From contig JAFGSB010000024.1 in NCBI GenBank assembly GCA_016934825.1, forward strand, positions 1-55,450: 55,450 nucleotides of DNA, read 5' to 3'. Within the stretch, counting starts at the first letter, position 1, and the number at the start of each line of letters is the position of its first letter. The notes under the pieces were generated by a model. It saw only the letters and a program-made list of their open reading frames with translations. It ran no database searches and was not told the DNA's origin. Shown piece after piece: positions 3,103 through 37,720 of this stretch. The translations under genes were made by a program, and so were the position numbers. This DNA is from Candidatus Zhuqueibacterota bacterium. GTDB lineage: Bacteria > Zhuqueibacterota > Zhuqueibacteria > Residuimicrobiales > Krinioviventaceae.

Positions 3103-3157
3103 TTTATTATATTTAAACAGGGAAAAAGTTGTTTAATTTTACAGGAATAAAATTGGT

Positions 3158-5968: not shown

Positions 5969-6011
5969 GATGATTATAAATTCAGAATATTTTATAATAA
6001 GGAGTGTAAAC

Positions 6012-10121: not shown

Positions 10122-13100
10122 TCAAAAATGTAATTTATTTTTTTGTCTTCGTTTCGGTAATTTTATGGAAGCCCAGCGATGCTTTGTGTCGTTGGGTTTC
10201 CCTTTTAAAACCGGAAACAATACAGTCCGCCGGATTTTCCGTTCAATCCATAAATAACGACGGGGCGGTTATTAGAATATCCACGCCGGGATTTTTGGCT
10301 GAAAACCGGTCCGCTGTGTCCATGGAATTCAGTTCCATACAAATACCCGGAACGGATTTGTCGGTCAATGAGGGCTTTCCACAATTACCGGTTATCACCC
10401 GCCTGATTGAGGTCCCGTTATTTAATAATATTTTTATCAAGAATGTTGAAATAAAAGATGTTAATTTCAAAATGGAGGACATCGGTTTAAGCAAACCGGT
10501 CGTGCCGGCGCTAAAGGACCGCCCGGTCGGTTCAACAGGATCGTCCTCGCCTGACATGATCCTGGATATTTACAAGGCGGACGAATTTTATCCGGCCGGC
10601 CCCGTCAAATTAGTGCAAGGTGGGATTTCACGCGGTAAAAAGCTGTACCGGCTGGAGGTTTACCCTGTTTTATATCAACCCGTTAAACGGGAACTGCGGC
10701 TGCTTTCCAATATAACCGTTACAATTAAAATCAGCGATGCCGGTGTAAACATACCCGGGAATCCGGGCCGTTTATCTTCCCTCCCGATAGACCGAACGAA
10801 TGGGGGGACTATTATTTCTTTTCCGGGTACGCATGCGGAGGCAGGGAACGACAACCGGCAGCCGGGGTACCTGATTATCACCCCGGATGAATTTGTCAAC
10901 CCGTTAAAGCCGCTGTCGGACTGGAAGAGGCAAAAAGGATATAAAGTCAACATTGTCAGCACGACCGAAACGGGCGCGGATACAACCGGCATCCGCAATT
11001 ATATCCGGAATGCTTACGACACCTGGGAAAATCCGCCGACTTTTATTCTTTTGGCCGGCGACCCGTCGTTTATCCCGGGCTTCAGGGGCCGGTTCTCGTT
11101 GAATCCTCATGTACGGCATATAACGGATCTGTATTATGCCACTATGGACGGCAAGGATGATATTTTCCCGGATATTTTTGTCGGCCGGTTTCCCGCGGCG
11201 GATACATCGGAACTCCGCATCATGGTCGGGAAAACGCTTTTTTATGAAAAATTATATTCCGCCGATCCGGACTGGCTTGATTACGCGACTTTTATTGCGA
11301 CGCAGGACGAGGATTTTCATGAACTGGTCGAACAGGGGCACCGGGCCTCAATCCATGATTTTTTCGCGCCCAATGATATTGCATCAGATTCGATATGGAC
11401 TTTTTATAATGCATCCGGTGAGCAGTTAACCCGGGCAATTAACCGGGGAACAGCGGCCGTTACCTATTCCGGACACGGCAGTGAAACGTACTGGAACGAC
11501 CTGGACGGCGCCGATCCGCATGGATACAGCCTGTTCGATTTGTATTACCTGGAGAATAAAAACCGCTACCCGGCAGTATTGAGCTTTGGCTGTAACGCCG
11601 GGGATTTCAGCCGGCCGGAATGTCTCGGGAAAAGCTGGCTTCGGTTTGAAAACCGCGGCGCGGCATTGTTTTGGGGCGCCACGGACCTGGCCTTCTGGAA
11701 CCATGACTATTATTTGCAGCAAAAACTGTTCGCCGCAGGATTTGAAAAAGAGTATGATACGTTTTCTCAAATGGCGGCGGACGCGCTGTTACAGGTTTTC
11801 ACGCAGGGATACCAGTATTATGATATTTATTTCGAAATCTATAACCTGTTGGGAGACCCGGCTGCGCCGTTTTGGGCGGGAAAACCGGACTCTCTTTTTG
11901 TCGTTTGTCCCGATACGCTTGTCCCGGATGCCGGAAACTTGTCGGTAACTGTGAACAATTCATCCGGTCCGGTTGATAATGCCCTGGCGGCGGTCACGCA
12001 AAATGATATTACCCTCGGAGTGACCCGGACGCAAAACGGCATGGCGCTTGTCGAGTTCGAACATCCGGTTACGTTAACCGGGGATGTCCAACTCACGGTT
12101 TCAAAAGCGAAACATTTTGTTTTTTGTAAAAATATTAAATTGCCGGCCATGCCGCTGGTGAGTTTTACGCCCGAATCCTTAAGCGTCAATGTGGAACAGA
12201 AGGTACAGATCAGGGTTGAACAGCCGCAGGGCGTACCGGTTCCGGGTTATTTAATCAGTATCCAGGGTTTTGGACTGAATTCGCCTTTGTCCGGTGAAAC
12301 CGACAACCAGGGTATAGCAGAGTTTAACATCGATTGTCCGTATGGACAGATGTTGTCGATTTCCGTGCAGGAAAAAGTAACTCCAGATAAAATTTATGTT
12401 TACGGATTACCGGTGAAAAGCGGCCTGTATTTTACGGATGTTAAGGTGTCCGTCGATTCCGGACCGGTGCGGACCGATTCTTTGCTCGTTCCCGGCGTTG
12501 CCGGGACCGTGAAAATTGTCTCATCGCCGGTCGCGGATAAAATTTACGTACGGGGCGCCGGGATCGATACGGTTTTTACAGTACAGTCATTTAGTATTTT
12601 ACCCCTTGAAATTGGAGAAATTACAATAACTCTGGCAAAAAATGGTTATCAAATAATACAGTCGTCTTTATTTGCCGTTGACACCCGGGGTTCGATTACC
12701 GGAAAAATTGTTGATAACGAAGGTTCGGCCGTCCCGGACGCGGATGTAAGGTTTATTTCTGTGTTTTCACAAAAGATGAGCGAAACAAAATCGGACGGCA
12801 GTGGGACTTTTCATTTTAAAAATATACCGGCCGGACATTATAACGTACAGATACAAAAACAGGGATTTCAGCAACAAACAGTCAATGTGATTGTTGTTCA
12901 GGGGGATAATAATAAAGATTTTGTTTTGAACAAAAATCCGCTCCGTTTTGAATTAAAGCAGAATTATCCGAACCCGTTCAATTCGGAAACAAAAATAATT
13001 TTTCTGTTACCGGAACAGTCCAGAGTTAAGCTCGAAATATATAATACACTTGGACAAAAAGTAACAACACTTGTAAATGAGATAAAAGAACCGGGACCAT

Positions 13101-13219
13101 ACACCGTCAGGTGGGACGGACAGAATGAAAAAGGACTAAATGTCAGCGCCGGAGTCTATATTATGTATTTAAAAGCCGATAATCAATCCGCAATAAAAAA
13201 AATGCTGTTACTCCGTTAA
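10118..13219 (+). CDS. Secreted C25 (gingipain-like) cysteine protease with carboxypeptidase-regulatory and sorting domains
   Basis: This 1033-residue exported cysteine protease of the gingipain type has a GTG start overlapping the previous stop by 4 bases. A hydrophobic signal (IKNVIYFFVFVSVILW) is followed by a gingipain propeptide-like region, then PGYLIITPDEF, which opens the C25 fold. The catalytic dyad is His453 in SGHGSETYWN and Cys492 in SFGCNAGDF. Ig-like segments follow, then a carboxypeptidase-regulatory-like domain at about residues 857-930 (GSITGKIVDNEGS...), then the FlgD-like sorting domain from about residue 941 (KQNYPNPFNSET) to KKMLLLR. In Bacteroidota this family includes gingipains and also PorU, the type IX sortase. 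The separate carboxypeptidase-regulatory domain and a sorting domain of its own favour a cargo protease rather than PorU. Confidence 0.92.
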   Translation: MIKNVIYFFVFVSVILWKPSDALCRWVSLLKPETIQSAGFSVQSINNDGAVIRISTPGFLAENRSAVSMEFSSIQIPGTDLSVNEGFPQLPVITRLIEVPLFNNIFIKNVEIKDVNFKMEDIGLSKPVVPALKDRPVGSTGSSSPDMILDIYKADEFYPAGPVKLVQGGISRGKKLYRLEVYPVLYQPVKRELRLLSNITVTIKISDAGVNIPGNPGRLSSLPIDRTNGGTIISFPGTHAEAGNDNRQPGYLIITPDEFVNPLKPLSDWKRQKGYKVNIVSTTETGADTTGIRNYIRNAYDTWENPPTFILLAGDPSFIPGFRGRFSLNPHVRHITDLYYATMDGKDDIFPDIFVGRFPAADTSELRIMVGKTLFYEKLYSADPDWLDYATFIATQDEDFHELVEQGHRASIHDFFAPNDIASDSIWTFYNASGEQLTRAINRGTAAVTYSGHGSETYWNDLDGADPHGYSLFDLYYLENKNRYPAVLSFGCNAGDFSRPECLGKSWLRFENRGAALFWGATDLAFWNHDYYLQQKLFAAGFEKEYDTFSQMAADALLQVFTQGYQYYDIYFEIYNLLGDPAAPFWAGKPDSLFVVCPDTLVPDAGNLSVTVNNSSGPVDNALAAVTQNDITLGVTRTQNGMALVEFEHPVTLTGDVQLTVSKAKHFVFCKNIKLPAMPLVSFTPESLSVNVEQKVQIRVEQPQGVPVPGYLISIQGFGLNSPLSGETDNQGIAEFNIDCPYGQMLSISVQEKVTPDKIYVYGLPVKSGLYFTDVKVSVDSGPVRTDSLLVPGVAGTVKIVSSPVADKIYVRGAGIDTVFTVQSFSILPLEIGEITITLAKNGYQIIQSSLFAVDTRGSITGKIVDNEGSAVPDADVRFISVFSQKMSETKSDGSGTFHFKNIPAGHYNVQIQKQGFQQQTVNVIVVQGDNNKDFVLNKNPLRFELKQNYPNPFNSETKIIFLLPEQSRVKLEIYNTLGQKVTTLVNEIKEPGPYTVRWDGQNEKGLNVSAGVYIMYLKADNQSAIKKMLLLR

Positions 13220-24391: not shown

Positions 24392-25729
24392 TTGGCAGCT
24401 TCACCTCTAAAAACAATATTAAAAACCTCATTGCCGGCTGTAATCGATCTGTCTTCACAAACGATTATGTGGACAGTAGAGGCAATTTTGATCGGGAAGT
24501 TGAGCGCCGCAGCATTGGCGGGACATAGTATGGCTATCCAGGTCATCATGGTCTTTATTGCGGTATTACTAACTTTTGTTGTTGGCGCCAGCCTGATCAT
24601 TAACAGGCATCTTGGCGCAAAGGATTTAAAACAGGCAAATCATATTTTCAGCCAGGCCATGATGTTAGGTATAATCATGGCCGTAATATTTTCTTTGATT
24701 TGGTATTTCGGTGCGATTCATATTTTTAAATTTATTAAAGAAAACGGCGCCGCATCCGCACAGGCTGCAGGTATGATATATCTTCGTACCGTTTCGATGT
24801 TTGCCCCGTTGTTTATTACGGGTTTTGTAGCACTTGGAATTATTCGGGCGGTTGGCGACACACGGTATTCTATGATCATAAATATTTCGATCAATACGCT
24901 GAATTTAATTTTGTCACCGATACTTATATTTGGTCTGTTTGGGATGCCAAGATTAGAGGTGAAAGGCGCCGCACTTGCAGTCGGGATTTCACATAGTGTG
25001 GGATTTATTGCGACCTTTACTCTTTTACGCAGTCATCGGTTGCAAGTGTTTCTTTCTCTTAAAGAGATGACAAGACCATGTTTAGAGAGTTTTAAGCAAC
25101 TGTTCAGGGTTGGAATTCCGACAACTATTGAGCAGCTAACCTGGGCGCTTGGGCAGTTGGTTGTAACAGGTTATGCGGCAAGCATATATGTTACCGTGTT
25201 GTCGACACATGCTGTCTTTGTGCGGATACAAGCAATATTATCCATGATTTATATGGGCTTTGGATTGTCGGCAATGAGTACAATGGGTAAAAATCTGGGC
25301 GCATCGCAAAATGTGCTGGCGGAAAGAATGGCAAAAACCGCTCATCGGGTAGTGGCTATTTTTGTAATGTTTGTAGTTTTTTTAATGGTCATATTTTCAA
25401 AATTTTTGATTTCTGTTTTCACCACGGATCCGGCAACAGTGGCGCTCGGACAAAAAGCGATGATTGTTTTTGCTATGGCGCAAATTCCAAAAGCCATGTC
25501 CAATGTGCTTGCCGGTAATTTGCGGGGGATCGGTGAATTGAAATGGCTGATGTGGACAACGATTATATTTGTCCTAGTATTTGAAATTAGTATTAATTAT
25601 GTCGCGGCATTTATATTGGGATTGGGTTTGTATGGAATATGGGGTGTACAATGTTTGGATGAGTCAATACGATTTGGACTCAGTTACTGGCGGTTTCATC
25701 GGGGTACATGGAGGGTCCGGAAAATTTAA
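24392..25729 (+). CDS. MATE-family efflux transporter
   Basis: This 445-residue protein has about 12 transmembrane helices and is a cation-coupled multidrug and toxin exporter of the MATE class. Typical segments are SLPAVIDLSSQTIMWTVEAILIG near the N-terminus, GASLIINRHLGAKDLKQAN and RAVGDTRYSMIINI, with the same patterns in the second half (MGKNLGASQNVLAERMAKTAHR, AGNLRGIGELKW). The start is TTG because an in-frame stop lies 9 bases upstream (24383) and no ATG is available. The stop overlaps the tmk ATG by one base. Substrate unknown. Confidence 0.9.
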   Translation: MAASPLKTILKTSLPAVIDLSSQTIMWTVEAILIGKLSAAALAGHSMAIQVIMVFIAVLLTFVVGASLIINRHLGAKDLKQANHIFSQAMMLGIIMAVIFSLIWYFGAIHIFKFIKENGAASAQAAGMIYLRTVSMFAPLFITGFVALGIIRAVGDTRYSMIINISINTLNLILSPILIFGLFGMPRLEVKGAALAVGISHSVGFIATFTLLRSHRLQVFLSLKEMTRPCLESFKQLFRVGIPTTIEQLTWALGQLVVTGYAASIYVTVLSTHAVFVRIQAILSMIYMGFGLSAMSTMGKNLGASQNVLAERMAKTAHRVVAIFVMFVVFLMVIFSKFLISVFTTDPATVALGQKAMIVFAMAQIPKAMSNVLAGNLRGIGELKWLMWTTIIFVLVFEISINYVAAFILGLGLYGIWGVQCLDESIRFGLSYWRFHRGTWRVRKI

Positions 25730-26382
25730 TGGCACAGAATAACCCTGTATACAGTGGAAAATTTGTTACGTTTGAAGGTATTGATTATTCAGGAAAATCT
25801 GTTCAGTCTAAAATTTTATACCAAAAACTGGTTGATCATCAAATTGATACACTGCTTTTAAGAGATCCCGGCGCAACCGCCATATCGGAAAGAATACGTG
25901 ATATATTACTTGACAAAAAAAATCATGAAATGAGTGTATGGACTGAATTGTTATTATATGAAGCGGCGCGCGCGCAAATGGTGCAGGAAGCGATAATTCC
26001 GGCCCTGACAGCCGGTAAAGTGGTTATTTGTGACAGGTTTTACGATTCTACGACCGCATATCAGGGGTATGGCAGGCAACTGGATCTGGCAACCGTATCC
26101 AGAGCAAATTTGTTAGGCGCTTGTGGAGTTACCCCGGATTTAACATACATAATCGACCTTGATGTGAATACAGCAATAAAACGTCGGCAAGAACTGAATG
26201 AAAAAGCCGACAGACTGGAGGCCGAAAGCCCGGAATTTCAAAACAGGGTAAGAGACGGTTATTTATCTATTGCTAAAAAAGAAAGCCATCGGATTTTTTT
26301 ACTAAAGGGAGAAAGATCGATTGAAAAACTGAGTCAGGAAATTTATAATATATTTAACAATAGATTTAAATTAGTAGAATAA
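25729..26382 (+). CDS. tmk: Thymidylate kinase
   Basis: This kinase of about 217 residues makes dTDP from dTMP. The P-loop is at residues 17-24 (GIDYSGKS), the DR(F/Y/H) motif reads CDRFYDSTTAYQGYGR, and the base-binding RDPGATAISERIR segment replaces the more usual REPGG. I start at the ATG at 25729, which overlaps the MATE stop by one base (TAATG). An ATG at 25708 would add 7 residues and cannot be excluded. The DPGA variant is unusual for Tmk but seen in divergent homologues. Confidence 0.9.
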   Translation: MAQNNPVYSGKFVTFEGIDYSGKSVQSKILYQKLVDHQIDTLLLRDPGATAISERIRDILLDKKNHEMSVWTELLLYEAARAQMVQEAIIPALTAGKVVICDRFYDSTTAYQGYGRQLDLATVSRANLLGACGVTPDLTYIIDLDVNTAIKRRQELNEKADRLEAESPEFQNRVRDGYLSIAKKESHRIFLLKGERSIEKLSQEIYNIFNNRFKLVE

Positions 26383-26396
26383 TTATTGAGGACGTA

Positions 26397-28163
26397 ATGA
26401 TGTACAAAAAAAAGGGAATAATATTACTATTTGTTCTCTCTATAACAGTTTTTGCAGGATTATTTACAAGTCTCTACAGCGACAATTCAAAAGACATTTA
26501 TTATAATTTAAGAAAATATATTACGATCTTTGGTGACGTTTATAAAGAAGTGTCGAATAATTATGTAGAGGAGATTGATCCTGAAAAGTTTATTCGCGCC
26601 GGTATCCAGGGGATGCTCGATGAACTCGATCCGTATACTGTTTATCTTGAAGACGAAGGAAAAGACGAGCTTGAGATCATGACGCGCGGTAAATACTTTG
26701 GAGTGGGTATGCGAATATCCACCCGTAATGGGTGGCCGACGGTGGCAGAACAACCTTTTCCAAACAGTCCGGCTGCCAATGCGGGAATCCGGGAGGGCGA
26801 CCAGATAATCGAAATTGACGGGACCTCGACAAGGGGCGACAAAATATCAAAAACCGCTTCCCGGTTACGAGGTACTCAAAAGGGCAGTGAAGTCAGGATT
26901 AAAATTAAGCGTGTTGGAGTGGATAAACCGATTGATTTGACCCTGATCCGTGATGAAATTATTGTCTCGGAAATAGAATTTTCCGGTTTTGTGGATCCCG
27001 GGATCGGCTTGATACGATTGACACGCTTTAACCGGGGTGCGGGAAAACAGGTGCGCCGCGCCGTGGAGGAACTACGGGACCGTGGTATGACGGGCTTGAT
27101 CTTTGATTTACGCGGCAATCCCGGCGGATTATTGGATGTGGCGGTATCCGTTTTGGAGAATTTTGTTCCAACGGGAGAGCTTGTTGTTTATACCAAGGGC
27201 CGGGAAGGGACCCAAAGACAGGATTACAGAACCCGGATCGATCCTGTACTGGGCAATTTGCCGTTAGTCGTTTTGGTTGACGGATTTAGCGCTTCCGCTT
27301 CGGAAATTGTTGCGGGGGCGATACAGGACCTGGACCGAGGCGTCATTGTCGGATCGGAATCGTTTGGGAAAGGTCTGGTTCAGACCGTTGTGAATTTGGA
27401 TAGCCGCGGTGACGCAAAATTAAAAATTACCACGGCACAGTATTTTATGCCCAGCGGCAGGCTCATTCAGCGTCCCGAAGTTTTTAACAGGGGCCGGGGC
27501 TCTGTGTTCGTGAATGCAAATGAAGATGAAAGTGAAGATGAGGATGAAGAGGACGTAACGGAAGAGCCGCAAAACAAAACAAAAATAGAAACCGACAAGG
27601 ATGATAATAAATATTTCACCAAAAATAACCGTGAAGTACATGGTGAAGGCGGAATTTTACCTGATATTATCATAAAAAATAAAAAAACGACCAAATATGT
27701 TGCCGAACTCAGGCGAAATTCCATGTTTTTTAATTTCAGCCTTAATTATGCAACAGATCATGCGGATGATTTGACGGGTAGCGTTAAGATAACAGATGAT
27801 ATATTGAATGATTTTAATAAATTCGTTAAAGACAAAAATTTTGATTATATACCGGATGGATTTAAAGAGTTGGAAAATCTTGAAAAAATTGCGGAAGAGG
27901 AAAATTATTATGAACTTATGAAACCGTATTTTCAGGATATGCGAAAAGAGTTCGTTCGTGTGAAGGAAAAAGAAAAAGCAAACTCGGTTAATGATATCCG
28001 GTTCTTGTTAAAAAAAGAGCTGACAGCCAAAGTGTTTGGTAATGAAGATGCTTATAAAGCGGGATTCGAGCGTGATGACGTACTATTGAAGGCTGTCGAT
28101 ATCCTGAAGAACCAGGGTAACTATAATAAGATATTAAATGTGAAGGTGGCGACAAAAAATTGA
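26397..28163 (+). CDS. ctpA: Carboxy-terminal processing protease, S41 family
   Basis: This 588-residue periplasmic serine protease has an N-terminal signal/anchor (KKGIILLFVLSITVFAGLF). A PDZ domain around residues 95-180 reads YFGVGMRISTRNGWPTV ... PAANAGIREGDQIIEIDG. The S41 domain has nucleophile Ser300 (GFSASASEIVAGA) and general base Lys325 (SFGKGLVQT), with the classic 25-residue spacing. After the catalytic domain comes an acidic insert (EDESEDEDEEDVTEEP) and then a helical C-terminal region with LPDIIIKNKK. GAGG lies upstream of the ATG. It lies 14 bases after tmk, suggesting co-transcription. Likely roles are processing of envelope proteins or peptidoglycan hydrolases. Confidence 0.92.
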   Translation: MMYKKKGIILLFVLSITVFAGLFTSLYSDNSKDIYYNLRKYITIFGDVYKEVSNNYVEEIDPEKFIRAGIQGMLDELDPYTVYLEDEGKDELEIMTRGKYFGVGMRISTRNGWPTVAEQPFPNSPAANAGIREGDQIIEIDGTSTRGDKISKTASRLRGTQKGSEVRIKIKRVGVDKPIDLTLIRDEIIVSEIEFSGFVDPGIGLIRLTRFNRGAGKQVRRAVEELRDRGMTGLIFDLRGNPGGLLDVAVSVLENFVPTGELVVYTKGREGTQRQDYRTRIDPVLGNLPLVVLVDGFSASASEIVAGAIQDLDRGVIVGSESFGKGLVQTVVNLDSRGDAKLKITTAQYFMPSGRLIQRPEVFNRGRGSVFVNANEDESEDEDEEDVTEEPQNKTKIETDKDDNKYFTKNNREVHGEGGILPDIIIKNKKTTKYVAELRRNSMFFNFSLNYATDHADDLTGSVKITDDILNDFNKFVKDKNFDYIPDGFKELENLEKIAEEENYYELMKPYFQDMRKEFVRVKEKEKANSVNDIRFLLKKELTAKVFGNEDAYKAGFERDDVLLKAVDILKNQGNYNKILNVKVATKN

Positions 28164-28282
28164 TAGTTGTTTTTTATACTAAAAATATTTAAATTATTTA
28201 ATTTAATATTCCTTCTTTTAATATAAATTCGATGAGTGCTAAGAAATTTTGTTAGCGATTAAAAATAACACAAGGAGATTTT

Positions 28283-31000
28283 ATGTCTGAAAAGTATGTT
28301 TATCAATTCGGCGGCGGTAAAGCAGAAGGCCGGGCTGATATGAAAAATTTGTTGGGAGGTAAAGGTGCTAATCTTGCCGAAATGAATTTAATAGGTGTTC
28401 CCGTCCCTGCCGGGTTTACAATTTCTACGGAAGTTTGTACATATTATAATCAAAATGGGCAAGACGAAACCGTAAAATTAATAAAAAGTGAAGTTGAAGC
28501 CGGAATTAAAAATATTGAAGCAATGATGAATGCAAAATTCGGTGATCAAACCAATCCTCTGCTGGTATCTGTCCGCTCCGGTGCGCGTGTATCTATGCCC
28601 GGAATGATGGATACTGTTTTGAATCTGGGTTTGAATGATAATGCGGTTCAAGGGTTAGCCGCAAAATCCGGCAACGAGAGATTTGCCTGGGATTCATATC
28701 GCCGTTTTGTGCAGATGTACGGCGACGTCGTATTGGGGATGAAACCGGAAAGTAAAGAAGATATTGATCCGTTTGAGGAAATTATTGAAAAAGTAAAAGA
28801 ACAAAAGGGTGTCGAGAACGATACTGATTTAACGACTGACGATTTGAAGAAACTGGTTGTTGATTTCAAGGCGGCCGTTAAAAAAGTAACGGGAAAAGAT
28901 TTCCCCGATAATCCCTGGGAACAACTCTGGGGTGCGGTTTGTGCTGTTTTTGACAGTTGGATGAACGACCGCGCTATCGTTTATCGAAAATTAAACAAGA
29001 TCCCGGAAGAATGGGGTACCGCCGTTAACGTTCAGGCTATGGTATTTGGAAATATGGGCAATAACTCCGGAACGGGTGTGGCTTTTACACGCGATGCCGG
29101 CACCGGTGAGGATATTTTTAACGGTGAATATCTCATTAATGCTCAGGGTGAGGACGTTGTAGCAGGTGTTCGTACTCCCCAGCAAATTACACTGGAGGGT
29201 TCTAAACGCTGGGCGGTACTGGCAAATGTATCCGAAGATGAACGTAAAGCAAAATACCCGTCCCTTGAAGAGGCCATGCCGGCTGTTTATAAACAACTGA
29301 GTGATGTGGAAACAAAACTTGAAAATCATTATAATGATATGCAAGACCTGGAATTCACCATCCAGGACGGGCGGCTCTGGCTGCTGCAAACCCGCAACGG
29401 CAAAAGAACCGGCGCGGCAATGGTAAAAATTGCTGTGGATTTGTTGAAGGAAGGAAAGATTGATGAAAAAACGGCAATTAAAAGGGTAGACCCGGAAAGA
29501 CTGGATGAGTTATTACACCCTGTATTTGATAAAAACGCTCTGGCAAAAGCCAATGTCCTTGCAAAAGGGCTCCCCGCATCTCCGGGCGCCGCAACCGGCC
29601 GTATCGTATTCTTTGCCGACGAGGCCGAAGAATGGGCCGCAAGGAAAGAACATGTCATCCTTGTCCGTATTGAAACCTCTCCCGAAGACCTTGCCGGTAT
29701 GAACGCGGCAAACGGAATCCTGACTGCCCGCGGCGGCATGACTTCTCACGCGGCCGTTGTCGCCCGCGGTATGGGTAAATGTTGTGTGTCCGGCGCAGGT
29801 TCTGTAAAAATTAATTATAAAACCCGTACATTCACAGCCGAGGGGAAAACCTTTAAAGAAGGTGACTGGATTTCTTTGAATGGCTCCACCGGTGAAGTTA
29901 TTGAAGGTAAAGTTGTAACAAAAAAACCGGAATTGAGCGGTGATTTTGGCGAATTGATGAAATTATGTGATAAACACACAAAAATGCTTGTGCGCACCAA
30001 TGCCGATACACCGCATGATGCAAAGGTTGCCCGTGATTTCGGAGCAAAGGGAATCGGCCTGTGCCGTACCGAACACATGTTTTTTGAAGGCGACCGCATC
30101 AAGGCCGTCCGGGAAATGATCCTGGCGGAAAATGAAGCCGGACGGCGAAAGGCCCTGGCAAAATTACTGCCCATTCAACGCGGCGATTTTGAAGGTATTT
30201 TTGAAGCTATGGACGGACTGCCGGTAACGATTCGTCTTTTGGATCCGCCGTTGCATGAATTTGTTCCCCATGAAGAAGCAAATCAGAAAGAAATGGCCGA
30301 CGAAATGGGTATTTCTGCCGAAGAAGTCAAAGCCAAAGTTGAATCCCTGGCCGAATTCAATCCCATGCTCGGCCATCGCGGCTGCCGTTTGGGAAACACC
30401 TATCCGGAAATTACCGAAATGCAGTCCCGGGCCATTATCGAAGCCGCGTTAAACGTTAAGGCAAAAGGTATTGATGCCAAACCGGAAATTATGGTTCCGT
30501 TGATTGGTACAAAAGAAGAATTTGTTCTGCAGGAAGAAATTATTCGCGGAGTGGCCAACAAGGTATTTGAAGAAAAAGGTCAAAAGATCGAGTACCTGGT
30601 CGGGACCATGATCGAGATCCCGCGCGCCGCTTTAACTGCCGATAAAGTTGCCGAAGCTGCAGAATTTTTCTCTTTCGGCACGAATGACCTCACCCAGATG
30701 GCGTTCGGATACTCCCGTGATGATGCCGGAAAATTCCTGCCGGTTTATCTGGATAAAGGTATTCTTAAAGTTGATCCGTTCCAGGTTCTGGACCAGGAAG
30801 GCGTTGGTCAACTGGTGGAAATGGGTACTAAAAGAGGTAGAAGCACCAGACCGGACCTCAAAGTCGGTATCTGTGGCGAACACGGCGGTGAGCCCAGTTC
30901 TGTAAAATTCTGCGCCAAAGTTGGCATGAATTATGTGAGCTGTTCGCCGTTCCGCGTACCAATCGCGCGTCTTGCTGCTGCCCAGGCTGCGGTTGAATAA
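28283..31000 (+). CDS. ppdK: Pyruvate, phosphate dikinase
   Basis: This 905-residue enzyme interconverts pyruvate, ATP and phosphate with phosphoenolpyruvate, AMP and pyrophosphate. The order is an ATP-grasp domain ([35 protein letters not shown]), a swivelling phosphohistidine domain with His489 ([19 protein letters not shown]), and a PEP-binding barrel ([27 protein letters not shown]) with catalytic Cys864 (GICGEHGG). Length is normal and CAAGGAG lies upstream of the ATG. A strong terminator follows, so it is probably monocistronic or ends its transcript. It fits gluconeogenesis or pyrophosphate-linked glycolysis in an anaerobe. Confidence 0.97.
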
Positions 31001-31028
31001 ATTATTGGTACAATATTTGAAATATACC

Positions 31029-31061
31029 AGGCGCCTGTTTATATAAACAGGCGCCTTTTTT
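31029..31061 (+). terminator. Rho-independent terminator of ppdK
   Basis: A perfect 12-base stem (AGGCGCCTGTTT at 31029-31040, AAACAGGCGCCT at 31045-31056) with an ATAT loop is followed by a run of T. Confidence 0.9.
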
Positions 31062-31122
31062 ACTTTATAGATGTTTCTTAATTAATTTTATTGTGTATTT
31101 ATTTTTATAACAGTGTAATGTT

Positions 31123-31773
31123 ATGAAATTACGAATATTTTGTGATTTTGACGGAACCATTGCGCAAAACGATGTCGGTAATCTTGTGTTTACCACTTTT
31201 GGCAACCCGGATCACTGGTGGAACCTGGTGGACCGTTGGCGAAAAGGTGAGCTGGACGGCCGGGATCTGTGGCGAAGACAATGTAAAGTCAGTAATATGA
31301 CCGAACAGCAACTGGATGAATTCGCGGCAGAGCAGCCCGTGGACCCTGCCTTTCCGGCGTTTGTCACCTTTTGTGAACAACGCAATATACCGGTTTATGT
31401 AGTCAGCGACGGCATGGATGCTTATATTTCAAAAATATTACGGTTTAACGGTATAAATAACCTGAAAATACGCGCCAACCGCCTTGAAATTCATCCGGAT
31501 GGCAGACTTTCGGTGGAATTCCCCTATTATCAGAAAGACTGCTGTAATTGCGGCAACTGCAAGGGGTACCATGTAAAAAAAGAAAAGCGGCCGGGCGAGA
31601 AGACAATTTACATCGGCGACGGTTTTTCCGATGTATGCGGATTAAAAGCGGCGGACATCACCTTCGCCAAAGGATACCTGCTGGACTATTGCCGGGAAAA
31701 CGATTTTGAATGTAAAACTTTTAATACTTTTTCGGATGTACAAAATCAATTAAAAATGCTTTTGGGGGAATAA
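31123..31773 (+). CDS. MtnX-like HAD-IB phosphatase
   Basis: This 216-residue HAD-superfamily phosphatase has catalytic Asp8 and Asp10 (FCDFDGT), a late motif YIGDGFSDVCGLKAAD and the Thr/Ser motif VVSDGMD. A cysteine cluster (KDCCNCGNCKGYHV) and the tail KGYLLDYCREND match the Bacillus MtnX type, which dephosphorylates 2-hydroxy-3-keto-5-methylthiopentenyl-1-phosphate in methionine salvage. The related HAD-IB phosphoserine phosphatases lack the cysteine cluster. It is followed after 29 bases by a class II aldolase-fold protein, the fold of MtnB, which acts one step earlier in methionine salvage. No other salvage gene lies nearby, so the substrate is inferred and another sugar phosphate is possible. 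Confidence 0.82.
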   Translation: MKLRIFCDFDGTIAQNDVGNLVFTTFGNPDHWWNLVDRWRKGELDGRDLWRRQCKVSNMTEQQLDEFAAEQPVDPAFPAFVTFCEQRNIPVYVVSDGMDAYISKILRFNGINNLKIRANRLEIHPDGRLSVEFPYYQKDCCNCGNCKGYHVKKEKRPGEKTIYIGDGFSDVCGLKAADITFAKGYLLDYCRENDFECKTFNTFSDVQNQLKMLLGE

Positions 31774-31802
31774 TAGAAATATTTTTTTTATAAAGAGGTT
31801 TT

Positions 31803-33086
31803 ATGAAGTTTGATTTATTACATCCTGCGGACCAGATCGTCGCCATAATGGAACGGATTTACGGCTATGGGATGACAACCATGTCCGGGGGCAACATATC
31901 GATCCTGGACCAAAACGGCGATATATGGATTACTCCCGCCGCGGTGGACAAGGGCAGCCTGAGAAGGGACGATATCGTACGCGTAAAACGGGACAGCTCA
32001 ACAGAGGGCAATCACAAACCGTCTTCCGAATATCCGTTCCACCGGGCAATTTATGAGTGTAGGAAGGACATAAAAGCCATTCTGCACGCGCATCCGGCCG
32101 CGCTGGTTTCGTTCAGTATTGTCAGACAAATTCCGGACACCCGGGTTTTCCCCACCGCCCGGCAGGTGTGCGGAAAGGTCGGGTATGCCCCGTACGCGAT
32201 TCCCGGCAGTGAACAACTAAGTAAAAACATTGCCGATGTATTTGCGCAGGGACACGATACGGTGTTGTTGGAGAATCATGGAACGGTGGCATCCGGTATA
32301 TCGGTTTTGCAGGCTTTTCAGCGTTTTGAGACACTCGATTTTTGTGCCCGACTCATCATCAAGGCCAATATTTTGGGGAAACCGCAGTTCCTGTCGGATG
32401 TGCAAATCAATCTACTCAATCACAGAACCCATTATTTGCCCGAAATTGTACCGGAGGGGCACAGCAGCAGGGAAAAAGAATTGCGAAAAAAGATGTGTGG
32501 TTTGGTTGAGCGATCATACAGGCATATGCTGGTTACCAGTACCGAAGGTACCTTTTCCACCAGGCTTGATGCGACCGGTTTCTTGATCACGCCGTATGGA
32601 GCGGACCGGAGAAACATGGAAATCGAGGACATTGTTCTTATTCAAAAAGGGAAACGGGAGGCCGGCAAATTACCCAGCCGCTCGGTGTTGATGCATCAAA
32701 AAGTTTATGAACAGCATCCTGACATCAACGCGATTATCCTCGCCTTTCCACCCAACCTTATGGCTTTCGCGGTATCAGCCACACCCTTTGACACCCGCAC
32801 CATACCCGAAAGTTATATTTTGTTGAGGGATATTCTTCTGCTGCCGTTCGGTCCGCAATATCTTGATTTGGATGAACTGGCGGCGACAATAACAAAAGAT
32901 AATCCACTGGTATTGATAGAAAACGATTGTCTGATATCGACCGGCTCGGACCTGCTGCATGCTTTCGACCGGCTGGAAGTGGCAGAATTCAGCGCTAAAG
33001 CAATCATTGCCGCCAGAGCGCTGGGGACCGTGGTTCCGATCAACGAGGAGCAAACAAATGATTTAAACCGCCTGTTTTTGAGCTGA
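31803..33086 (+). CDS. Tandem class II aldolase/adducin-fold protein with an apparently metal-free second half
   Basis: This 427-residue protein contains two aldolase/adducin domains. The first (residues 5-195) keeps the phosphate loop MSGGNIS, Glu76 (SSEYPFH), the zinc pair His95 and His97 (LHAHP) and the third zinc ligand His159 (ENHG). The second (about 225-420) aligns, but the zinc pair is Leu313/Phe315 (IILAFPP) and the third ligand is Asp375 (IENDCL), so it should not bind zinc in the usual way. AAAGAGG precedes the ATG. The single active half could be an aldolase or MtnB-like dehydratase, with the other half structural or regulatory. It forms an operon with the MtnX-like phosphatase. 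Confidence 0.85.
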   Translation: MKFDLLHPADQIVAIMERIYGYGMTTMSGGNISILDQNGDIWITPAAVDKGSLRRDDIVRVKRDSSTEGNHKPSSEYPFHRAIYECRKDIKAILHAHPAALVSFSIVRQIPDTRVFPTARQVCGKVGYAPYAIPGSEQLSKNIADVFAQGHDTVLLENHGTVASGISVLQAFQRFETLDFCARLIIKANILGKPQFLSDVQINLLNHRTHYLPEIVPEGHSSREKELRKKMCGLVERSYRHMLVTSTEGTFSTRLDATGFLITPYGADRRNMEIEDIVLIQKGKREAGKLPSRSVLMHQKVYEQHPDINAIILAFPPNLMAFAVSATPFDTRTIPESYILLRDILLLPFGPQYLDLDELAATITKDNPLVLIENDCLISTGSDLLHAFDRLEVAEFSAKAIIAARALGTVVPINEEQTNDLNRLFLS

Positions 33087-33161
33087 CAAGCCGGAAAAGG
33101 CCTGAAATTTGCTATATACTGAGAGATGCTGACAATTTTGTAAAAATATTGAAGGGAAAAA

Positions 33162-33866
33162 ATGAAAAAGGTTATCGTGATTTTCTTTTTTTTGATGGCA
33201 TCGGTTTCATTATCTCAGGCGCAAACGACAGATGAATCCGAATCCGTTCTGCGGGATACCTATAAACGCTGGACATTTCAAACTATATTTAATCCGTTTA
33301 AAAGCATGCGCTGCGAGATCCGCTGTACCAGCCTTTCTCCGGAGCTGCTGCAGGTTTGGCGCGGTGCGGTAACCGATCAGAATATAACGGCCCGGATTGA
33401 CGCGCTGATCAATGCTATGCAGCAGGACAAAATACTGGTTTATCTGCTGGAAATAGATCCCGGGAAATCCGGTTTGTACACCATCGATATGAAAAAAATA
33501 AAGAAACGTACCAAACTTTTTATTATGGATAAAAATTCAAAAGGGTATAAACCCAAACAGGTCACGTCGAACCTGGAACGAAAATTGGAATCCAGTCAGC
33601 GTTATTACGGCGTTATGGCTTTTCAGGTCAAGGCGGAGGAAATTCTATTGCAGAACCTGAGTATGGAAACTTATTTTGAGTCCTGGGATTTTCTGGAGTC
33701 CAAACAAGTGCGGGATAAAAACGCTTATATCGCACAATTCAATTTTCACGCCAACGGCGCGCCGGAAAATGACCAGCCCGAAAACGTACCGGCTACGGCG
33801 GAAATTACCGGCCGGTTAAAAGGAGCCTTTCCGCTGGTGAGTATGATAACCAAAAAGACTTTATAG
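33162..33866 (+). CDS. Exported protein of unknown function
   Basis: This 234-residue protein has a signal peptide (KKVIVIFFFLMASVSLSQAQ, cleavage near residue 20). The ATG has GAAGGGA 6 bases upstream. The mature part is mixed alpha/beta, with Cys51 and Cys55 in the segment MRCEIRCTSLSPELLQVWRG as a possible disulphide. No known catalytic motif, lipobox or sorting domain was seen. It ends in TAG, immediately followed by the ATG of the next exported protein, so the two are co-translated and probably work together. I do not recognise a family. Confidence 0.75.
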   Translation: MKKVIVIFFFLMASVSLSQAQTTDESESVLRDTYKRWTFQTIFNPFKSMRCEIRCTSLSPELLQVWRGAVTDQNITARIDALINAMQQDKILVYLLEIDPGKSGLYTIDMKKIKKRTKLFIMDKNSKGYKPKQVTSNLERKLESSQRYYGVMAFQVKAEEILLQNLSMETYFESWDFLESKQVRDKNAYIAQFNFHANGAPENDQPENVPATAEITGRLKGAFPLVSMITKKTL

Positions 33867-34586
33867 ATGAAAACGGGGCCTACGTTAAAATATTTGTTTA
33901 TTTTTTTTCTCCTGTTTCCGTTACAGGCCGCCGCGGAAGAGCTTATACAAGGACATTATTGTTACAATTACGGGGATAACGAGACTTTGCTTGAGGCCCG
34001 GGAAATGACCCGCACACTGGCGGTCCGCAACGCTGTGGAATCGTACCATGTGTTCATCGAGGCTGCCAGCCTGATCGATAATTTTATCCTGACCACCGAC
34101 CTGGTGCAAACCATCAGTTCCGGGTATTTGAAGGATATGCAGGTGCTTGAACATACGGAGGAAAAATATACCATTTGCGAAACCGTGCAGTTCAAAATCG
34201 ATCCGGTGACGTTTGATACGTTTTTAAAGAGCCAGGTACAGCGGCGGCTGCGGATGGCGCGGGAAATGGGCATCGACAATAACGGTTGCCTGAAAATTTT
34301 GAGTTTAAGTCCCTTTAAATTCAACGCCGCCGGGGAAAAGGTCGTGGAAGCGGTTGTCAAGGTACTGCAGGCCACGGGACGTCTCGACAGCGCGACATTT
34401 CGCGCGGACAAGCCGCAGTATAAAATATGCATTACCTGGTACAATCGCGCCGGCGAGCCGCTGGACGGCGATTCGCGTTACATTCATACCGGCGCCGAAG
34501 GAATGGCCGCAGGGGAGATTAAAAAGATCGAGTTCGACAATCCGCCGCTGGAAACCGTGTCGTTCAGGGTGTGGCTGGTGAAATAG
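33867..34586 (+). CDS. Exported protein, FlgT/LPP20-N-terminal-like
   Basis: This 239-residue protein has a signal peptide (LKYLFIFFLLFPLQAAAEE). The segment LLEAREMTRTLAVRNAVESY resembles the repeated-Ala helix of LPP20/FlgT N-terminal domains (a GxG...A..A pattern in exported stress or flagellar proteins), but the match is loose. A second conserved-looking part is CLKILSLSPFKFNAAG followed by a beta-rich end. There is no spacer from the preceding gene, which argues for coupled translation. No flagellar genes are nearby. Function unknown. Confidence 0.72.
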   Translation: MKTGPTLKYLFIFFLLFPLQAAAEELIQGHYCYNYGDNETLLEAREMTRTLAVRNAVESYHVFIEAASLIDNFILTTDLVQTISSGYLKDMQVLEHTEEKYTICETVQFKIDPVTFDTFLKSQVQRRLRMAREMGIDNNGCLKILSLSPFKFNAAGEKVVEAVVKVLQATGRLDSATFRADKPQYKICITWYNRAGEPLDGDSRYIHTGAEGMAAGEIKKIEFDNPPLETVSFRVWLVK

Positions 34587-34785
34587 AGGTGTAAGCCTTT
34601 TCAGATAATACTAAAAAAGTACTGGATGCCCTGATTTATTTAATGTATGGGATAATAAAACTTCTCTTGCTACGGATTTTCACCCCGGATGACAGAAATA
34701 AAAAAAGTGATTCGAAAATGATTTCAATATAATATTTTTAATTACAAACCTTTTGTCATTAGCTTACTCTAGTTATTAGCATATA

Positions 34786-35121
34786 TTAAAACGAATCATT
34801 TTGAACAAGCCAACTTTCATTTGGTTTATGACCTGCATTTATTGCATTATTATAAAAATCTGTTAAACTTTCGATAGCACGATGTAAAACATATGCTTCA
34901 TTTTCACCCCAATTACTGTTCGTATGGTATGGTTCAATTTGAACAGGTGAATGAATATAATGGCTTTGTTCAAAAAATACTGTTTCATTTATTATGTTTT
35001 TAAAGATACGTACTGTAATTTCAGTATCAATACCACTTAAATTAAATTTGAATTCTGATAATAATTTTCGTGGATTTTCAACTGGCTTTTCATCGAACGC
35101 AGTTTCAATTGTATAAGGCAT
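34786..35121 (-). CDS. Small conserved-looking protein of unknown function (111 residues)
   Basis: The ATG has TTGGAG about 9 bases upstream on the minus strand. The protein has no signal peptide or membrane helix. Its C-terminal half is distinctive: WGENEAYVLHRAIESLTDFY, then NAGHKPNESWLVQNDSF. It looks like a compact cytoplasmic protein of a family I have an impression of but cannot name. It is the last of four small minus-strand genes that all carry good binding sites in an AT-rich segment unlike the flanking operons. Confidence 0.65.
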   Translation of the reverse strand: MPYTIETAFDEKPVENPRKLLSEFKFNLSGIDTEITVRIFKNIINETVFFEQSHYIHSPVQIEPYHTNSNWGENEAYVLHRAIESLTDFYNNAINAGHKPNESWLVQNDSF

Positions 35122-35257
35122 AATTTATTCTCCAAAATTTGTTGTGTTTAAGAATTACACTTGAGAGATTTAAAGTTTCTTACTCAGAAAAATTTAAAAA
35201 ATAGTATAAAATAATTAGTAGTAAAGATTGAATCCTTTGTGAAAACTAAATATGAAC

Positions 35258-35380
35258 TCAGGCTGGCAGGGCACATGTACCAATATTGAACTCTGGTCCC
35301 CAATTTGTTTCTAATAAAGCGAAACCAAATAATTTCAATTGTTGGATAGTGTTATTAATTATATTTAATATATCTCTCAT
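35258..35380 (-). CDS. Candidate 40-residue microprotein with strong ribosome binding site
   Basis: The longer frame (start 35503) has no binding site, but the internal ATG at 35380 has AAGGAG (35388-35393) exactly 7 bases upstream. The peptide (MRDILNIINNTIQQLKLFGF...) has an amphipathic N-terminal helix, then ETNWGPEFNIGTC and ends CALPA. It has no long membrane span. It lies between two other small genes on the same strand. The opposite-strand frame at 35286-35525 starts at TTG without a binding site and is probably a shadow. Confidence 0.5.
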   Translation of the reverse strand: MRDILNIINNTIQQLKLFGFALLETNWGPEFNIGTCALPA

Positions 35381-35546
35381 TGAACTACTCCTTCCCTGTT
35401 TGATTCTATTGTTGTTAGTAAATTTAATAGTATACGTAAACACTAGAAAAAAGAAACTCAAGAGATCAATATACGTTAATGTCGTGCAACCTTTAACTGC
35501 CAACCCAAACAGCCTGAATTCATAATCTTGTTATATTCTATAATAA

Positions 35547-35720
35547 TTATTTTTCTTTGCGTACACCTTTAAAAGGTTTTTCGTCAGCTTTTTGATCAAT
35601 AAATCTTCCAGTATCTTTATCTCTTTTTACCCATCTATCGGTTTTTGGATTGTGCACTTGTGAACGGTTCCTTACAGCGCCATGTCGATGACCATCACCT
35701 GTCGGTGGATTTTTTGCCAT
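35547..35720 (-). CDS. 57-residue conserved small basic protein
   Basis: I translated this gene from the minus strand: an ATG at 35720 with AAAAGGAG about 6 bases upstream, ending TAA at 35547. The peptide begins MAKNPPTGDGHRHGAVRNRS, continues with HNPKTDRWVKRDKDTGRF and ends KPFKGVRKEK. It is strongly basic, rich in Gly, His and Arg, without hydrophobic core or signal. I have an impression of similar small hypothetical proteins across bacteria, but the function is unknown. A disordered nucleic-acid-binding peptide is a reasonable guess. It is 27 bases downstream of the next small gene. Confidence 0.75.
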   Translation of the reverse strand: MAKNPPTGDGHRHGAVRNRSQVHNPKTDRWVKRDKDTGRFIDQKADEKPFKGVRKEK

Positions 35721-35747
35721 AATTTTCTCCTTTTAAAAAAATTATTA

Positions 35748-35966
35748 TTATCTTTGAGATCCGGCAAGACATTTGGCGCAATTATCATATCCAAGAGAAT
35801 GTGCACTGAGGAGAGAAGTGAAAGGCTTGTCATGTTTTGCTCGAATTATTTCATTAATTTGGCAACCACTATTAGAAACATCCTCATTATCCAAATCGTG
35901 AACTTCTAAAGTATTTGTATTTCCCAAATATCGTTCCCCATTCATATTTCCTGTGTATCTTCTCAT
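35748..35966 (-). CDS. Small CxxC protein of unknown function (72 residues)
   Basis: The ATG has AGAGGA about 6 bases upstream on the minus strand. The sequence has NGERYLGNTNTLEVHDLDNE, then GCQINEI, and ends AHSLGYDNCAKCLAGSQR. The single cysteine of GCQ plus the CAKC pair and nearby histidines suggest a small metal site of the kind seen in Ada-type or rubredoxin-like mini-folds. It is the promoter-proximal member of the four-gene small-protein group. Function unknown. Confidence 0.72.
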   Translation of the reverse strand: MRRYTGNMNGERYLGNTNTLEVHDLDNEDVSNSGCQINEIIRAKHDKPFTSLLSAHSLGYDNCAKCLAGSQR

Positions 35967-36334
35967 AAATAATCCTCTATATTTTTTTACTTTTAATTAT
36001 ATAATATGTAATTACAATAAATATGCCATAATATTTTCAATAAAAAATTTTTTATAAGCAAAACAAAAACAATAAATTAAATCAAAAAATTGTATGTATG
36101 AAAAAAATTTTTTTTATGTCATTATTGCATAATATGTGTCATTTAGTCATATATATGTCAAATTTGACTAATATTTATTTTTAAAAACAAAAAAATATTA
36201 GTATAAGGTGAGCATCGGCGAGCCAACAAGCCGGAGGATATATTTTTTATTCATGAAAATGAATTTGTGAATAAAAGTAATAATAATTTTTATAAAGAGG
36301 ATTTGAATTTGTTAATTGAATGAGGAGAATAGAG
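35967..36334. other. AT-rich spacer with palindromes and a GC-rich core, between small-protein genes and toxin-antitoxin
   Basis: These 368 bases hold no clear gene. Most is extremely AT-rich. It contains the perfect palindrome at 36157-36168, a GC-rich core (36208-36236, reading GTGAGCATCGGCGAGC and on to AAGCCGGAGG) and overlapping hairpins: TTTTATTCA (36245-36253) with TGAATAAAA (36268-36276), and ATTCAT-GAAA-ATGAAT inside it. A GTG frame of 20 codons spans 36208-36270 without a clear binding site. It probably carries the promoter of the small-protein group and may be a recombination or insertion scar. Confidence 0.45.
36157..36168. promoter_or_regulatory. Perfect 12-base palindrome, candidate operator
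   Basis: GTCAAATTTGAC is fully palindromic. Related half-sites (TGTCATTTAGTCA) lie 13-25 bases to the left. On the minus strand it includes TTGACA, a consensus -35 element facing the small-protein genes, with a weak -10 downstream. A repressor site overlapping a promoter is plausible. Confidence 0.35.
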
Positions 36335-36592
36335 TTAGTGAGCTTTAAGGATCTTTTCGTAATCATCATGAGTACCTATCCATACCCAAATAAAATCATC
36401 TCCATCTTTAACTGCCAGGGCTCGATGAAACAGACCGATTCTCACGGACCATAAATCTCCAATTTTTTTGAAATGAAGTGACGGGTGTTGAGAGTTTGTT
36501 TTTAATAATCTAAAATTTTTATCTGCTAAATCCTTTATTTTTTTTGGTAAGGTTTGATATCTCTGCCGGAATTTTTCAGTCGTTTTGTGCAT
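36335..36592 (-). CDS. RelE/ParE-family toxin of a type II toxin-antitoxin system
   Basis: This 85-residue basic protein has the RelE/ParE plan: a helical N-terminus (KFRQRYQTLPKKIKDLADKNF), then LHFKKIGDLWSVRIGLFHRALAV and a C-terminal WVWIGTHDDYEKIL strand/helix with His and Tyr. Members usually cleave ribosome-bound mRNA or act on gyrase. Which applies here cannot be told. Its ATG shares one base with the stop of the upstream antitoxin gene (TAATG), the typical antitoxin-first arrangement. Confidence 0.85.
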   Translation of the reverse strand: MHKTTEKFRQRYQTLPKKIKDLADKNFRLLKTNSQHPSLHFKKIGDLWSVRIGLFHRALAVKDGDDFIWVWIGTHDDYEKILKAH

Positions 36593-36792
36593 TACAAGTT
36601 TTTCAATTTGTTTCTGGTTTTGGCTTCACCTGCTTCCTGCTTTAAAAAGTCCAGCCTTCCGGCGTCTGAATCATTTTTTATTCGCTTGTCCCATTTTCGC
36701 CAATCTCTTGCCAGAAACCAACGTCGAAAACGACGATATTCTTCTTCCGGTAGAGAATCAACTACAATTTCAAGTTCTTCGATTTTGGTCAT
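36592..36792 (-). CDS. Antitoxin partner of the RelE/ParE-type toxin
   Basis: This 66-residue protein (MTKIEELEIVVDSLPEEEY ... FLARDWRKWDKRIKNDSDAG RLDFLKQEA) fits the short antitoxin family with the W-x2-WD-x3-(K/E) and (G)RLD-x-L-x2-EA pattern that accompanies RelE-like toxins. AAAAGGA precedes the ATG. There is no obvious DNA-binding N-domain, so autoregulation may be by the complex or absent. A palindrome lies 39 bases upstream. Confidence 0.8.
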   Translation of the reverse strand: MTKIEELEIVVDSLPEEEYRRFRRWFLARDWRKWDKRIKNDSDAGRLDFLKQEAGEAKTRNKLKNL

Positions 36793-36830
36793 TTACTTTT
36801 CCTTTTATAAGTTAACAAAAACGGATATTC

Positions 36831-36840
36831 TTATTAATAA
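36831..36840. promoter_or_regulatory. Palindrome upstream of the antitoxin gene, candidate operator
   Basis: TTATTAATAA is self-complementary and sits in a longer imperfect palindrome (ATATTCTTATTAATAAATAT) 39-48 bases before the antitoxin start. Toxin-antitoxin complexes usually bind such sites, but the AT content makes chance possible. Confidence 0.3.
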
Positions 36841-36949
36841 ATATTGATAATGATTTATTGTAGAATACTATTTAAATAAAAATAATGTGAAAATATTTAA
36901 AAATCAATATTTTTCAGTTTAAAAAGCCACCACCGGGAGGTCCCAATGT

Positions 36950-37720
36950 CTAAAGATTTTCCAAATATCCGATCCCGCCAAGCTGCTTCATTTGCTGTTC
37001 GATCCAGAGGACCCTTGTTTGAACATAGGGTGACGGCCTGGCAATAAACATTCGTTTCGGATTCGGGAGCACGGCCGCGAACAGGGCCGCGTCATAGCCG
37101 GTCAACTCGGCCGGTCGCTTGCCAAGATGCGATTCCGAGGCGGCGGCGACTCCGTAAACGCCGTCGGAAAATTCGGCGATGTTCAGGTAAACTTCGAGGA
37201 TGCGCCGCTTCGGCCACAGCCATTCCAAAAGCACGGTAAAATAGGCCTCCAGACCCTTGCGGACAAAATTTTTACCCGGCCACAAAAAGAGATTTTTCGC
37301 CGTTTGTTGTGTAATCGTGCTCGCTCCCCGCAGTCGTCCGCCCCGCCTGCTGTCTTCCACGGCGTCCGAGATCGATTCGAAATCAAATCCCCGGTGGACG
37401 GGAAATTTTTGATCCTCGGCTGCGACAACCGCCAGAGGCATCAAGGGTGATATGGATTCCCGGTTAACCCACCGGTAGCGGATGGTATCCTTATTTTGTT
37501 TGAAAAAATTTTGCACCCGCCTTTGCATCATAAAAGCCGATGTAGGAGGCGGTACCCAGCGAAAGCTGAGGACCAGATCGACTGAAAAGAAAAAAATGGC
37601 AAGGACCAGCAGTCCCGGAATGGCCAGGGAAACGGTTATTTTACCCGGGAATTTTTTTGTCTTCATCCTGACGGTTAATATATCCTGATCAATTGTATTT
37701 TGCCTGGGGGTATTGTTCAC
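36950..37720 (-). CDS. mtgA: Monofunctional biosynthetic peptidoglycan transglycosylase
   Basis: This 256-residue membrane-anchored GT51 glycosyltransferase polymerises lipid II glycan strands. After a cytoplasmic leader there is one transmembrane helix (residues 28-50). GT51 motifs follow: VAAEDQKFPVHRGFDF with catalytic Glu102, RGASTITQQTAKNLFLWP, FVRKGLEAYFTVLLEWLWPK and RRILEVYLNIAEF. There is no transpeptidase domain, as expected for MtgA. The start is GTG at 37720. An ATG 18 codons inside (37666) would still keep the anchor. The spacer upstream (minus strand) has a weak TTGTTG-N17-TATATT promoter. Confidence 0.93.
   Translation of the reverse strand: MNNTPRQNTIDQDILTVRMKTKKFPGKITVSLAIPGLLVLAIFFFSVDLVLSFRWVPPPTSAFMMQRRVQNFFKQNKDTIRYRWVNRESISPLMPLAVVAAEDQKFPVHRGFDFESISDAVEDSRRGGRLRGASTITQQTAKNLFLWPGKNFVRKGLEAYFTVLLEWLWPKRRILEVYLNIAEFSDGVYGVAAASESHLGKRPAELTGYDAALFAAVLPNPKRMFIARPSPYVQTRVLWIEQQMKQLGGIGYLENL

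Follow-up and report, generated by a model that had tools for sequence, protein, structure and literature searches.

A probable hotspot of unrelated small accessory genes in an AT-rich segment of a Candidatus Zhuqueibacterota genome

The window analysed here is a 55,450-nt stretch of a Candidatus Zhuqueibacterota bacterium genome (GenBank assembly GCA_016934825.1, contig JAFGSB010000024.1, positions 1 to 55,450). It holds an island of four minus-strand open reading frames (ORFs) of 72, 57, 40 and 111 codons, which lie where a preliminary description of the sequence had placed them. The island and its surroundings comprise the following features:

34587–36949: AT-rich accessory segment, between 33867–34586 (plus strand) and mtgA (36950–37720, minus strand)
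34786–35121, minus strand: p111, alpha/beta protein of 111 aa, whose domain is C-terminal in some Vibrio plasmid proteins
35258–35380, minus strand: p40, orphan microprotein of 40 aa with the strong Shine–Dalgarno motif GGAAGGAG
35547–35720, minus strand: p57, 57 aa, with matches to PADLOC PDC-S38 (PDLC05010) and phrog_12550 and an alignment
35748–35966, minus strand: p72, 72 aa, studied by translation, phrog_28292 match, alignment, and fold and profile comparison
36335–36592, minus strand: ParE-like toxin, 85 aa (PF24732, ParE_like)
36592–36792, minus strand: putative antitoxin, 66 aa, upstream of the toxin

Each of the four ORFs is preceded at good spacing by a Shine–Dalgarno-like motif with a 4–5 nt match (AGAGG for p72, AAGGAGA for p57, GGAAGGAG for p40 and GGAG for p111), as the preliminary description had noted. 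When the same 1.7-kb stretch was shuffled under a dinucleotide model, and ATG-initiated ORFs of at least 40 aa with a match of at least 4 nt were counted, 0.06 such ORFs were expected, far below the four observed. Moreover, three of the four proteins, all except p40, have conserved homologues, and two are members of small, widespread families of no known function, in line with the earlier estimate of at least two. The genes are separated by same-strand gaps of 27 nt (p72–p57), 166 nt (p57–p40) and 136 nt (p40–p111). The AT-rich setting and the placement between envelope genes and a toxin–antitoxin pair were likewise borne out: GC content falls to 31% and 29% in the bins covering 35–37 kb, against about 43–46% in the flanking bins, with exported or envelope-type genes on the left and an antitoxin/ParE-like toxin pair followed by mtgA on the right.

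The segment also coincides with a break in synteny, judged from one same-genus genome (G037) at about 62–77% protein identity: genes at 25708–34586 are collinear in the two genomes, and this collinearity ends exactly at the left edge of the island, beyond which G037 carries different genes and has its mtgA homologue on another contig. Searches around the segment found no tRNA, no Rfam match, no integrase and no convincing flanking direct repeats, only AT-rich low-complexity or simple repeats. Given the synteny break, the lack of tRNA and Rfam matches and the restriction of repeats to AT-rich simple ones, we treat the region as an accessory segment in which no element ends were recognised. Elsewhere in the window, four long ORFs (943, 936, 1383 and 1033 aa) lie side by side on the plus strand at positions 271–13219; three of them align through their C-terminal parts to one and the same short region of a large protein of G037, which suggests from sequence a shared C-terminal domain.

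The toxin–antitoxin pair beside the island is an ordinary ParE-like one. The toxin matches PF24732 above the curated cut-off (E 8.5e-7; 29.3 bits against 24.4), and its start overlaps by 1 nt the end of the adjacent small gene in antitoxin position, which itself reached no curated cut-off in family searches. Neither protein matched PADLOC, nor did any of ten flanking window proteins. Thus, a local defence context is absent among the neighbours tested, and the neighbourhood check proposed in the preliminary description yielded no known defence gene. Proximity of small genes to a toxin–antitoxin pair is in itself weak evidence for a joint system.

The clearest family assignment in the island is that of p57. 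It matches PADLOC-DB model PDLC05010 (PDC-S38) over residues 1–57 of 57 (E 2.2e-34) and phrog_12550 with E 1.4e-21, retains the invariant PDC-S38 residues in the alignment, and shares about 59–79% identity with most of the plasmid, prophage and chromosomal relatives that we read. One protein of the preliminary description is thereby tied to a named, though uncharacterised, defence-candidate family. The protein had been called basic and GH-rich; the first holds (16 K/R and 8 D/E, counted from the sequence), whereas the second is a loose label. The family is patchy, occurring in 3 of 82 phylum-sample genomes (the window genome counted) and in 14 of 397 Pseudomonadota, and its relatives include 61 plasmid records, 16 phage records and 5 viral contigs. 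The literature library searched held no paper that names PDC-S38.

The plasmid relatives of p57 lie in defence-rich neighbourhoods, among RloB, TIR, SIR2 and retron-type genes, a restriction subunit with SAVED and nucleotidyltransferase genes as in CBASS, AbiE, and multiubiquitin–ThiF–DUF6527 genes. At a Vibrio locus (L090:6828–10295), a WYL regulator, PDC-S38, multiubiquitin, ThiF/DUF6791 and DUF6527 follow one another in a row. A PADLOC tally of p57 neighbours at the case loci lists CRISPR I-F/TniQ, IetA, RmrA and WYL; because control regions also hold methyltransferases, we do not use this tally alone as proof. The type I-F Cas and TniQ matches among the pooled neighbourhoods apparently stem from the same Vibrio locus. 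More specifically, p57 relatives at four unrelated loci (L080, L084, L090 and a Klebsiella plasmid) have beside them a divergent WYL regulator, each time from the same sequence family, and a WYL gene of another type precedes the relative at L081; none of ten control regions contained a WYL regulator. In two of three phages read, from Staphylococcus and Streptococcus, the relative lies on the lysogenic strand near a repressor and an antirepressor, while in a Microcystis phage it is located elsewhere. The prophage ORFs are at L045:4001–4165 (Staphylococcus) and L047:4001–4168 (Streptococcus); in phi575, the PDC-S38 ORF is unannotated, and a gene has been called over it on the opposite strand. 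Two clues are thereby added for this family, the recurrent WYL neighbours and the lysogenic-strand position in the Staphylococcus and Streptococcus phages.

Adjacency to defence genes is the basis on which PADLOC lists PDC-S38, not the basis of family membership; the PADLOC paper sets out this guilt-by-association reasoning and cautions that models built on a single gene are less accurate (PMC8565338). Known defence genes stand beside PDC-S38 at its relatives' loci and not in the window, and the defence association of p57, as read from its sequence, is that of the PADLOC defence-candidate family. Its candidate role, we infer, is that of a small basic protein which works by itself as an accessory of defence-related mobile cargo and probably binds nucleic acid or protein.

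The p72 protein belongs to a second mobile family. Its residues 1–41 match phrog_28292 (E 1.3e-11), and an alignment of 20 family sequences keeps N16, E21, H23, D24, L25, D26, E28, C35, I37, C63 and C66, with H23, C35, C63 and C66 invariant. The family was found in 3 of 82 phylum-sample genomes and 1 of 398 Pseudomonadota. Most relatives come from viral contigs, where the gene usually stands by itself, on the other strand from the lytic phage genes around it, and in phage RG-TP1 the relative adjoins an antirepressor; no phage genes were recognised near p72 in the window.

Several comparisons point to the N-terminal zinc domain of Ada. An AlphaFold model of moderate confidence (pLDDT 76, pTM 0.62) retrieved this domain as all of its top four Foldseek matches in the PDB, with TM scores of 0.50–0.55 and weak E-values of 0.34–3.0, and entries named "Metal binding domain of Ada" as well as phosphotriester repair proteins appear further down the list from a viral structure library. 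Profile–profile comparison with real Ada domains gave E 2.5e-4 and a probability of 43%, whereas an unrelated control family reached E 0.17, these E-values being for single pairs and uncorrected for database size; the alignment pairs C35, C63 and C66 of p72 with Ada zinc cysteines. However, none of 20 family members matched Pfam PF02805 even at E 1, and the family has no cysteine at the methyl-acceptor position and so differs from the four-cysteine zinc site of Ada; for these two reasons, we do not file p72 as an Ada domain. Its predicted fold resembles that of Ada, with a putative His-Cys-Cys-Cys site, the methods agreeing despite weak statistics. p72 would then be a small Ada-type domain, stabilised by zinc and carried by prophages as cargo, and since its first ligand position is a histidine instead of the acceptor cysteine, binding (of DNA) rather than repair is to be expected. 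A prophage family without annotated function thus gains a structural idea that can be tested.

The domain also turns up in other arrangements. In one Pseudomonadota genome, a 313-aa open frame (L126:1486–2424, minus strand) ends in a p72-like zinc domain. The protein encoded downstream contains an SHELAHVQQQ stretch, which to us is reminiscent of DUF4157. A genome of the same order as the window genome has two p72 copies (L014:421–867 and L015:1300–1737), each followed by a 56-aa YjzC-family protein (PF14168) after about 27 nt, echoing the succession of p72 and p57 in the window. p72 may therefore have a habit of small partners. We give little credence to a further speculation, namely that p72 is the founding member of a family of miniature zinc proteins of Ada type, with a His-Cys-Cys-Cys site and no suicide cysteine, which prophages and accessory islands retain and which at times pair with a small protein (PDC-S38 in the window, YjzC elsewhere). 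On this view, such a pair would read damaged or modified DNA, or bind nucleic acid in some other way, and serve as a compact unit of immunity or lysogeny maintenance.

Relatives of p111 share 31–38% identity with it; the family was found in one of 82 phylum-sample genomes and at nine loci in the genome-contig search. The domain forms the C-terminus of 415–442-aa proteins on Vibrio conjugative plasmids (at L043:5996–7324 and L044:5553–6800), no part of which matches a Pfam family. Standalone relatives occur in ordinary chromosomal places in Sedimenticola and gammaproteobacterial MAGs, and on a Methylomagnum plasmid between a dynamin-like GTPase pair, with partial PADLOC LeoA/LeoBC matches, and a TIR gene. 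The p111 model is confident (pLDDT 86) and consists of a small beta-sheet and a long helix; compared with the PDB, it matched no solved fold (best E 0.22, TM 0.26). Across the analysis as a whole, hits to Csy4 and centromere sequence profiles were discarded as being at chance level.

Do the four genes belong together? The preliminary description had proposed one stress or defence module and had itself named independent distribution of the families as evidence against it; independent distribution is what we found. Each family occurs in one to three of the 82 phylum-sample genomes, more than one only in the window genome. A profile search of 120 loci (1.09 Mb, with some overlap) located p72 in 30, p57 in 47 and p111 in 13, again with two or more families only in the window. 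Of the nine genomes to which p111 led, p57 is also present in one; the single near-exception is the Methylomagnum plasmid, a cargo-rich replicon on which relatives of p57 and p111 lie 13 kb apart. At none of the fetched loci beyond the window do two of the three families with relatives occur together. The claim of a four-gene module fails, and we reject it on these tests in genomes and fetched loci.

The results show that the four ORFs are genuine, that their families are distributed independently of one another and that synteny breaks at the segment. The excess of ORFs over chance, the patchiness of p57, p72 and p111, the mobile-element contexts of p57 and p72, the ordinary chromosomal places of the standalone p111 relatives read, the lack of a shared locus, the G037 break and the lack of PADLOC matches among ten flanking proteins together support independent cargo, and we consider it likely that the segment is an accessory-gene hotspot in which unrelated, individually mobile small genes and the toxin–antitoxin pair were acquired, rather than a functional module. 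p57 would act alone, as a small basic accessory of mobile DNA related to defence, p72 would be a small zinc domain that prophages and islands express, and, as a chance result of assembly, the two might be co-transcribed here across their 27-nt gap; p111 and p40 would be further passengers. Four points weigh against this account, namely the Methylomagnum plasmid shared by p57 and p111 relatives, the YjzC gene that follows each of the two p72 copies, the presence of the exact arrangement in one genome only, and a synteny break judged from a single same-genus genome.

A related possibility, which we regard as somewhat improbable, is that the segment is the remnant of an integrated prophage or satellite that lost its integrase and other genes and left its cargo behind. 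The occurrence of three of the families on mobile elements elsewhere, the AT-rich composition and the synteny break are consistent with such an origin, which agrees with acquisition at a hotspot on how the cargo arrived; however, the segment spans only 2.3 kb and shows no integrase, tRNA or convincing flanking direct repeat.

It is less probable still that some of the ORFs, p40 above all, are spurious and untranslated. No convincing relative of p40 was found in 82 phylum and 398 Pseudomonadota genomes, in plasmids or, by peptide pattern, in viral contigs, and with no homologues, the case for it comes from its Shine–Dalgarno motif and length. The best match (E 0.014) lies inside a long frame and was judged to be chance. 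On the other side, the motif is strong and properly spaced, and four such ORFs are present where 0.06 were expected.

Least credible is an anti-phage or stress module formed by p72 and p57, perhaps with p40 and p111, in which a zinc-domain sensor and a basic effector share one promoter and the toxin–antitoxin pair serves as addiction element: the two genes are 27 nt apart on one strand, p57 counts as a predicted defence candidate, prophages also carry members of both families as cargo and in another genome p72 is followed by a small partner, but that partner is YjzC and not PDC-S38, the two families meet at no other fetched locus, the gaps to p40 and p111 are loose, and no other defence gene was found near the pair.

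Acquired at a probable hotspot, the island is ordinary in kind, being accessory cargo of known family types, and its two useful clues are the WYL regulators beside PDC-S38 and the Ada-like predicted fold of a prophage family. Compared with PDC-S38/phrog_12550, p57 covers the whole 57-position model at the identities given above, but in the window it stands without a known defence system or WYL regulator alongside. p72 agrees with phrog_28292 in residues 1–41, a family of prophage-type genes on the lysogenic strand, whereas its C-terminal half diverges and its location is chromosomal. The toxin and the overlapping upstream gene conform to ParE-like type II systems (PF24732), differing in an antitoxin that matches no family above cut-off, and no link to the four small genes is evident. 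Finally, the Ada N-terminal metal-binding domain (PF02805) supplies the four best PDB matches of the p72 model (1u8b, 1zgw, 1wpk and 1adn) and three aligned cysteines; p72 differs from it in having histidine in place of the acceptor cysteine as first ligand, in lacking a Pfam match, with Foldseek E-values of 0.3–3, and in standing alone at 72 aa, without the rest of Ada.
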